IMG/VR virus record: IMGVR_UViG_3300033388_003953
Location: 1 to 33,069 of that record
Direction: 5' to 3' (one strand)
Length of the DNA: 33,069 nt
Source: a virus
In this document: one piece after another, positions 17,702 through 20,045 of the stretch
Numbering within the stretch: position 1 is the first letter of the stretch
Layout of the letters: each line of letters opens with the position of its first letter
Translations under genes and position numbers: made by a program
Notes under the pieces: model-generated
The model's input: only the letters and a program-made list of their open reading frames with translations
Told to the model about the DNA's origin: nothing
The model's database searches: none

Positions 17702-18568
17702 TTAAATATCAAACAATCCTTTTCCATAATACATATCTTCACTTTTTGGACTTTCAAAGTCACTTATTACACTTCCACACTCTTCGGCGCATTCATCTGT
17801 ATTGGATAAGCTCTTAGGTAAATTTAAATTATTCTTTACTTCATAAGCAGTTCTAAAATGTCTATAAATTTTTCTTTCATACTCTTCTGATTTTTGTTTA
17901 ACAAAATTAAAGTCTTTTTCTAATTCTATAAATGGATCAAAGTATCGAGGATTTTCATTTGCAATCATTTTTAATTTTTTATCTGATTTTTTATAACATC
18001 CTACACAATTTCCATAGTGTTCTTCAATCTCTAAATTAAACGGCATTAGATCCCACCAATTTAATATTTCTTGTTTAGTGATTTTAGTAATAGTTGCTAA
18101 GGGATAAATTAAAACTTCATTATTTGTTACTCTTCCAAATTCATCATGTCTAATTCCCACCGCTTTTCTATAATTATTTAATCCAAAAAAATCTTTTGCA
18201 TATTTATCCATAGGAATAATTTTTAATTCTCTTGTACAGTGAATATAAGTTTTATTCATTACTCCATAAACTGAACACATCTCTTTAAACAGCCTATTAT
18301 CCCTACAAGCAGTTTTATAGTCAACTATCGTATAGCCTGTTCCTTTCATTGGTATTGGATTAATAACAGCTTCAACCCAAGTTAAATTCAAATTAAAATA
18401 TTTATCACACTTATCAACAAATTCCAAAGTCTTTTCATGTTCAAGTCCAGTATTAGCATAAACAAAATGCAAATTATATAAATGAGACATATATGTAATT
18501 AACCACCACGACATAAAAGCAGAAGTTCGCCCACCGCTAAATGCTACAATAATATTTTCTTTTTTCAT
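17702..18568 (-). CDS. PP-loop ATPase, PAPS reductase / adenine nucleotide alpha-hydrolase family
   Basis: 288 residues. The N-terminal SGGRTSA (residues 11-17) is the PP-loop that binds ATP/PAPS pyrophosphate. GIRHDE at 138-143 matches the downstream conserved motif of this superfamily. Cysteines at 111, 188, 191 (CVGC), 260 and 264 could hold a metal or iron-sulfur cluster, as in DndC, CysH and some tRNA thiolases. Reaction cannot be fixed: sulfate assimilation is unlikely in a phage, while nucleic acid thiolation or nucleotide activation is plausible. It has its own promoter and a structured leader. Gene-scale neighbours are the Rep, an HNH nuclease and a DNA methyltransferase. Confidence 0.82.
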   Translation of the reverse strand: MKKENIIVAFSGGRTSAFMSWWLITYMSHLYNLHFVYANTGLEHEKTLEFVDKCDKYFNLNLTWVEAVINPIPMKGTGYTIVDYKTACRDNRLFKEMCSVYGVMNKTYIHCTRELKIIPMDKYAKDFFGLNNYRKAVGIRHDEFGRVTNNEVLIYPLATITKITKQEILNWWDLMPFNLEIEEHYGNCVGCYKKSDKKLKMIANENPRYFDPFIELEKDFNFVKQKSEEYERKIYRHFRTAYEVKNNLNLPKSLSNTDECAEECGSVISDFESPKSEDMYYGKGLFDI

Positions 18569-18576
18569 GGTAATTC

Positions 18577-18643
18577 CTTAATCGTGAAAGTTTCTTAATC
18601 ATATAAAAGCGAGAGGATTATAAGCCCTCTCTTTACGATTAAG
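18577..18643 (-). promoter_or_regulatory. Structured leader of the PAPS-reductase-like gene (possible translational switch)
   Basis: In the RNA (- strand) CTTAATCGT (18643-18635) can pair with ACGATTAAG (18585-18577), whose last bases run into the AAGGA ribosome site of the 18568 start. A second GATTAAG copy (18600-18594) can compete for the same CTTAATC strand. Between them lies a separate hairpin, GAGAGG/CCTCTC (18631-18611), followed by GCTTTTAT. The two pairings are mutually exclusive, one hiding part of the ribosome site. No known riboswitch class is recognised. Confidence 0.55.
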
Positions 18644-18650
18644 TAGATGT

Positions 18651-18679
18651 ATTATACTACTATTTACTTTATAAACCAA
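18651..18679 (-). promoter_or_regulatory. Promoter for the PAPS-reductase-like gene
   Basis: Reading the - strand: TTGGTT (18679-18674), exactly 17 bases, then TATAAT (18656-18651), a perfect -10. Transcription would begin near 18644, right at the first arm of the structured leader. It overlaps the end of the upstream small gene (18680-18844), so this gene is probably separately controlled. Confidence 0.65.
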
Positions 18680-19235: not shown

Positions 19236-20045
19236 TTATATAAACCCATAAATCCAATAATAAATTAAATTTTTGACTTGGATTTGTTGGTTTATCGTTT
19301 TACCGATAGCAGCAAAACGATAATATTTATATTTTATTCTTATTTGCGTTAAAATTAGTAAAATCAAAATATGAATAACTCTATTATCAATAATTTCTAT
19401 CTCTTTATTTATAATAAAATCATCCAATAACCCATCTACAAATTCCTTTTTTATCCCATGAGAGTATGCCTTTTTATATGTCAATTTAGTATATTTCTCT
19501 TTACTCATACTTGTAAATCTAATCTTCTTTTTTAACATACCTCTATAATCTCGTCTAACTGTATCTAATAGCAATAGTTTATCATCAGCGATACATTTAT
19601 CATAATCCTTTATAATGTATGAATAAACCGCCTCTTTGTGTTCTGGCATAGTTATCTCACAGAATTCACTAAATAAACCAAACTTTTCTATTACTTTATT
19701 TCTAATCTTTATTATTTGACTGTAATTATCATAAAATATTTGAGCGTGTACATGAGGATTTGAGTAATCATCCCCAAGTTCTATATTTGAGAAAAATTTT
19801 AATGTATCTGATTTAGTATTACTGATTAATTTTGAAAGATAGTTTTTTATCTCATTCATTACTTGCATTTTAAAATATTTATCATCATCTTGGTACGTGA
19901 AAGTAATCATCATTTTATTAAGGTGTTTGTATTTATTGAACATATAGAAGTATTCAAAGGTTTTTGAGCGGTTAGCTTTCTTTATAGCCTTAACTCTATC
20001 TATATTTGAAAAAGATTTGACATGATTAGAATTATTGACTATAAT
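19236..20045 (-). CDS. HUH-type replication initiator (Rep), probable non-AUG start
   Basis: Protein with the marks of rolling-circle initiators: motif I MITFTY, the HUH metal motif NPHVHAQIFYD (His-x-His), and a downstream YSYIIKDYDK with candidate nicking Tyr and the usual Lys. The first ATG (19943) lies only 11 residues before motif I. The frame stays open and protein-like for 45 codons upstream (VKSFSNIDRVKAIKKANRSKTFEYFY). In that stretch AAGGA sits seven bases before an in-frame ATT (20045-20043), giving 269 residues. Further up, a TTG at 20096 is in frame but followed by TAA after five codons. The C-terminal ~50 residues look low-complexity. The assignment is firm for HUH Rep, less so for the start. 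Confidence 0.72.
   Translation of the reverse strand: MIVNNSNHVKSFSNIDRVKAIKKANRSKTFEYFYMFNKYKHLNKMMITFTYQDDDKYFKMQVMNEIKNYLSKLISNTKSDTLKFFSNIELGDDYSNPHVHAQIFYDNYSQIIKIRNKVIEKFGLFSEFCEITMPEHKEAVYSYIIKDYDKCIADDKLLLLDTVRRDYRGMLKKKIRFTSMSKEKYTKLTYKKAYSHGIKKEFVDGLLDDFIINKEIEIIDNRVIHILILLILTQIRIKYKYYRFAAIGKTINQQIQVKNLIYYWIYGFI
19250..19285 (-). repeat. Hairpin 2 at the Rep 3' end
   Basis: AAATCCAA pairs with TTGGATTT (8 bp, 20-base loop). It lies six bases from hairpin 1 (19292-19323) inside the low-complexity C-terminal codons of rep. Neither hairpin is followed by a T run on the - strand, so they are poor terminators. Confidence 0.5.
19292..19323 (-). repeat. Hairpin 1 at the Rep 3' end, candidate origin
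   Basis: A 10-bp perfect inverted repeat, TTATCGTTTT with AAAACGATAA, enclosing the 12-base loop ACCGATAGCAGC (+ strand). HUH initiators nick in or next to such hairpins, often within or beside their own gene, so this is a candidate double-strand origin. The loop does not match a nick site I know. Confidence 0.4.

Follow-up and report, generated by a model that had tools for sequence, protein, structure and literature searches.

A candidate portable leader RNA with competing pairings around the ribosome site, carried on single-gene phage cassettes

Based on our observations, we suggest that a PAPS-reductase-like gene in a viral contig (the window, i.e. the whole stretch of 33,069 nucleotides that was analysed) is preceded by a portable leader RNA, which has its own TATAAT promoter, travels on single-gene phage cassettes and has its translation gated by competing pairings. 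We consider this reading probable. The carrier cassettes seem to be mostly free-standing HNH endonucleases, with the PAPS-reductase-like gene as the cassette of the window. The parts of the leader, their conservation before unrelated genes and the compensatory changes in both pairings and in the hairpin are documented by the sequence comparisons described below, in which F denotes the 5' arm, and D and P its distal and proximal partners.

The leader of the window comprises about 82 nt of the minus strand and, from the promoter to the start codon of the PAPS-reductase-like gene (ATG starting at 18568), reads TTGGTT-17-TATAAT-ACATCTA-CTTAATCGT-AAA-GAGAGG-GCTTATAAT-CCTCTC-GCTTTTAT-ATGATTAAG-AAACTTTC-ACGATTAAGGA-ATTACC-ATG (Table 1). 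All the elements named in an earlier note on this DNA were found where that note had placed them. The TTGGTT-17-TATAAT promoter that it described has both boxes and the spacer; the -10 box is perfect, though the -35 box is weak, since only three of six positions match the consensus, which explains its absence from the promoter scan. Judging by the position of the -10 box, the transcript would be expected to start at about the F arm. The same holds for the two GATTAAG copies with which F was said to pair, the proximal one running into AAGGA, and for the separate 6-bp hairpin between the pairing arms (GAGAGG/CCTCTC at 18631-18611), which is followed directly 3' by GCTTTTATAT. An ORF of 55 aa (18844-18681) ends just upstream, so that the promoter directly adjoins the end of this small gene. 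Another minus-strand segment of the window (19236-19943), which lies within a tailed-phage contig, encodes a protein that matches a family of replication proteins, REP_ORF2-G2P (PF23343).

Table 1. Features of the leader region in the window
Feature	Position	Strand	Description	Basis
Unlisted ORF, 55 aa	18681-18844	-	own ribosome site GGAG; hydrophobic N-terminal half	sequence
Predicted promoter	18651..18679	-	TTGGTT 18679-18674, 17-bp spacer, TATAAT 18656-18651	sequence
F arm CTTAATCGT	18635..18643	-	partner of D or P	covaries with both
GC hairpin GAGAGG-GCTTATAAT-CCTCTC	18611..18631	-	N9 loop; between F and D	stem covariation, 12 leaders
D (distal) arm ATGATTAAG	18594..18602	-	alternative F partner, ribosome site left free	duplex shuffles
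P (proximal) arm ACGATTAAG	18577..18585	-	F partner covering the start of the ribosome site	sequence, folding
Shine-Dalgarno AAGGA	18575..18579	-	three-base overlap with P	sequence
PAPS-reductase-like gene (PP-loop family), 288 aa	17702..18568	-	behind the leader	PF01507 E=1.5e-6; phrog_424 E=9e-45

GATTAAG alone is not rare, occurring 10 times in the window against 8.1 expected. Together with its start codon, the window leader folds better than 199 of 200 shuffles (z = -2.9). The complementarity of F and D was matched by none of 2000 shuffles, and the dual pairing, i.e. pairing at the ribosome site together with an alternative partner of that arm, by approximately one in 1000 (p about 0.001).

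When 2.9 million viral contigs were scanned for the two-arm pattern, the leader was found in two others, its copies there being designated L072a (in L004/L072) and L073 (in L005). Both copies are 80-90% identical to that of the window over approximately 75-100 nt and stand directly before a start codon: the former precedes an HNH/AP2 endonuclease gene on the opposite strand inside a tail gene cluster, and the latter a DNA methyltransferase gene between terminase and portal. No other DNA similarity between these contigs and the window was found by blastn. Vibrio phage VvAW1, with a portal of 50% identity, has a gap of only 12 bp between terminase and portal; the L073 leader and methyltransferase therefore look like a unit, which was likely inserted between the two genes. 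By blastn, the window leader was not found in annotated phages, and plasmids gave no match to the L073 copy. The three leaders most similar in sequence to that of the window are near-identical and were counted as one lineage. A conserved upstream ORF (ATGAGCCTC... in L072a) was also considered and rejected, as this ORF has no start in the window.

Our searches reached 12 distinct leaders, a number that is a lower bound on the size of the family and represents few independent events; 7/12 are located before HNH/endonuclease genes. A diverged copy, L072b, precedes a second HNH gene on the contig of L072a (F CTTAGTTGT, P ACAACTAGG). A covariance search through 1.3 Mb of phage loci with HNH genes yielded a single further member, L078b, which also lies before an HNH gene; this match is weak by score (E 0.29), and its own architecture and the HNH gene support it. 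The hairpin loop of L078b, ATTAATTAC, is common to L072b, and a scan for TATAAT with this hairpin yielded seven further distinct leaders (L165-L169, L171 and L172). Four of them (L166, L167, L168 and L169) precede HNH/endonuclease genes, the proteins downstream of L171 and L172 have no PHROG match, and no intact gene is found behind L165. In the last case (L165:1697-1900), an intact leader is followed only by a very short reading frame (about 19 codons), which points to loss of the gene from this cassette; in phages this leader had no matches longer than 22 bases, and in plasmids none at all. An exact TATAAT is present upstream of F in 12/12 leaders, and five of these came from searches that did not demand it. 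In three cultivated-phage records (Vibrio, Polaribacter and Staphylococcus phages), HNH relatives start 10-85 bp behind the preceding gene, and in the one whose sequence was read no comparable leader was seen.

Arm sequences are wholly different between leaders, while their complementarity is kept. In the F:P pairing of L072b two positions are changed on both sides, and one of these changes is also compensated in D. The independent pair L165 and L171 differs at two F positions, which are paired in both leaders, with D and P co-changing at each. F, D and P thus change together in two independent comparisons (L072b vs its relatives, and L165/L171). The hairpin stem covaries as well: at position 4, where the 3' partner was unconstrained by the search pattern, all four Watson-Crick pairs are seen across the 12 leaders, and the stem of L168 (UGGGGG/CCCCCA) is fully paired. 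The stem was counted by hand, because MAFFT misplaced the hairpins of the window's lineage. The loop measures 9-10 nt and is AUUAAUUAC in 9/12 leaders; part of this invariance was imposed by the search pattern, and other loops occur in the lineage of the window. Covariation in relatives had been named by the earlier note as a check, and both arms and stem exhibit it. The central proposal of that note, that mutually exclusive pairings hide or free the ribosome site, gains support from the copies before unrelated genes, the compensatory changes in both pairings and the covarying hairpin.

For Fisher tests, ten leaders were treated as independent. Pairing of the ribosome site exceeded that of shuffles with p 1.6e-7 (1.6e-6 without the window's lineage), and dual pairing with p 5.6e-7 (2.5e-5 without it). 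A dual score of >=9 was reached by six of the ten leaders vs 7% of 366 control genes, i.e. ribosome-site-bearing genes from the same phage loci. As the shuffle p for dual pairing in single leaders ranges from 0.001 to 0.48, the case for dual pairing rests on the set; the D pairing of L072b and L078b is weak, and by dual score singly not significant.

How such a leader might work can be outlined from the predicted folds. F:D pairing would leave the ribosome site open, while F:P would close it, and P-pairing is accordingly expected to lower translation and D-pairing to raise it. F and D would meet first during transcription, making a new message briefly translatable; once P emerges, strand exchange may transfer F to it, upon which the message would close. 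The outcome would be a short, limited burst of translation per transcript. We propose this co-transcriptional timer, open first and then closed, tentatively, with somewhat less than even confidence, as its direction follows from folding order only. According to the energy model, the D and P states of the window lie within 0.2 kcal/mol of each other. Those of five canonical members differ by 0.2-4 kcal/mol (such models being rough), with a calculated D/P exchange barrier of about 9-11 kcal/mol. Nascent RNA of these five members that stops short of P has its D arm 71-98% paired in the model, which, with the two states being near-equal, would fit a message that is open and then closed. The longer leaders L165, L167, L169, L171 and L172 have more complex predicted folds, in which the simple D-state fold was not seen, and the D helix of L169 is more stable than its P helix, contrary to the timer idea. 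The purpose of the arrangement might be to limit a potentially harmful enzyme.

The main rival to the timer would be a bound factor. If the leader were a true sensor, the D/P balance would be shifted by a small molecule, a second RNA or a protein of phage or host that binds the hairpin or the D state, and the hairpin loop would be the binding site. Two-state leaders of near-equal energy are typical of sensors, and the stem varies with its pairing kept, while nine leaders share the 9-nt loop; this constancy is, however, partly a product of the search, and the loops of the window's lineage differ. Nor is there an Rfam class for it: at gathering thresholds the covariance models matched nothing, and at permissive ones the matches did not rise above chance level, so that the earlier note's statement that no known class matches holds for Rfam 15. 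Translational riboswitches resemble our leaders in having two states around the ribosome site, but here no ligand-binding core was recognised and no downstream pathway is shared. The ligands offered in the note (SAM, PAPS, cysteine and preQ0-type bases) find little favour, given that the genes behind the leader are unrelated: it also precedes an HNH endonuclease gene and a DNA methyltransferase gene, and no such leader was found at the two closest PAPS-like homologues among viral contigs. As these genes share no pathway, the metabolite of the PAPS-like gene is an unlikely ligand. We regard a sensor as unlikely, yet deserving of attention, and the timer and a bound factor are not mutually exclusive.

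A static hairpin would need only F:P, keeping translation permanently low, with D as a by-product of the repeat. That in nearly all leaders F:P is at least as strong a helix as F:D, that pairing of the ribosome site is significant by itself and that T4-type homing endonuclease leaders hide their site likewise (PMC2988022) would agree with it; the co-change of D with F and P in two independent comparisons, and the enrichment of dual pairing even without the window's lineage, make us think it quite improbable. Two further explanations concern DNA and transcription. Three CTTAATCGT-like copies within 67 bp beside the promoter might suggest an operator bound by a phage repressor, but no further exact CTTAATCGT copy is present in the window, and the arms of other leaders are entirely different, complementarity being kept rather than sequence; we find an operator scarcely credible. 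The GC hairpin with its T-rich stretch scores terminator-like in the window, whereas the T-run is absent in L073 (CACTTTAAAAT), L078b (CGTTTGATAC), L166 (CGTCCATTAA) and L165 (GTTAAAGC), and, since this stretch is not conserved, an intrinsic terminator or attenuator is very improbable.

The competing-pairing leader proposed here can be compared with several known systems. Type I toxin mRNAs, e.g. hok with its metastable co-transcriptional structures, also have competing local and longer-range pairings around the ribosome site, ordered by transcription. Short metastable hairpins of this kind can control the ribosome site of the AapA3 mRNA of Helicobacter pylori (PMC6733600). In these mRNAs, however, the early structure closes the site, whereas early F:D would open it here. 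They also have an antisense RNA, while none was found here (a brief look for an antisense promoter), and behind the leaders no type I toxin peptide was found, the identified downstream proteins being enzymes of 155-288 aa.

Ribosome-site-sequestering hairpins are known from the T4-type homing endonucleases I-TevI, I-TevII, I-TevIII, segB and Aeh1 mobE, in which the site is hidden in early transcripts and freed by a late promoter transcript without the 5' arm; among the free-standing endonuclease genes of T4, seven are cassettes that have no promoter (PMC2988022). The likeness lies in selfish phage endonuclease genes with a ribosome site hidden by upstream complementary RNA, and the corresponding predicted pairing is significant in most of our leaders. 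Here, by contrast, the third arm D competes and the leader also serves non-endonuclease genes. No second promoter was found inside or after the 5' arm in the 12 leaders; because the promoter precedes the whole structure, every transcript would carry this arm, unlike in the T4-type.

In Cluster K mycobacteriophages, SAS are fixed 13-bp sequences with 11-19 copies per genome, half of which have 17-bp inverted repeats a few bases apart (extended SAS, ESAS; PMC3203893). These too have a conserved sequence with inverted repeats immediately ahead of the start codons of phage genes unrelated to one another, but our leaders occur in one or two copies per contig, and have a promoter, covarying arms and three-arm competition. 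The SAS consensus GGGATAGGAGCCC (PMC3203893) was not found at the ribosome sites of the window and its relatives, which are of the AAGGA type in other contexts. No match to the hairpin core sequence was found in the literature searched, most subscription papers being outside its coverage. The portable switch looks real and previously undescribed. With some hesitation, we suggest that it may represent a new class of phage leader RNA on moron/homing cassettes of unrelated phages, in which strand exchange among three arms would serve as a timer or sensor and the AUUAAUUAC hairpin is conserved.

Other matches and elements were met in the course of the searches. The pattern TTAATCGT...GATTAAG...CGATTAAG gave 60 loci in genome contigs, nearly all of them unrelated CTTAATCTTAATCGTAATC hexamer-type repeats, and was abandoned. 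Clusters of the CTTAATCTTAATCGTAATC repeat, inverted around short spacers, are present in Verrucomicrobia, Planctomycetes and others (L007-L065), with many per genome in Chthoniobacter flavus. Pattern matches in L075/L076 were rejected, since they lie inside a long phage structural gene, without a leader. None of 793 bacterial genomes, which came from two phyla, contained the hairpin pattern. Some phage HNH genes are preceded by another style of leader, with TATAAT and a long AT-rich stem whose loop is a perfect complement of the ribosome site (L080:1600-1710, L080:6880-7060, L078:6100-6199, and L093/L094 upstream of the HNH gene); in the L080 example, the loop CTCCCGTCCT is complementary to AGGACGGGAG. 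The same problem of control may have found a second solution here. At L102:2000-2090, an HNH gene is preceded by GGAGTGA-TTGTGATTAC-TCACTCC-GCCTT-GTAATCAC, a possible compact pseudoknot.

Selfish endonucleases and other single-gene cassettes enter many phages, yet their expression must spare the phage. A portable leader that meters translation would explain how such cassettes can be inserted into clusters of structural genes, including on the opposite strand. If our interpretation is correct, the leader would confine the expression of any captured gene to a limited burst, irrespective of how the recipient phage programmes its transcription. The leader would then constitute a small natural example of strand-exchange control, and might serve as a search handle for cassettes in phage genomes.
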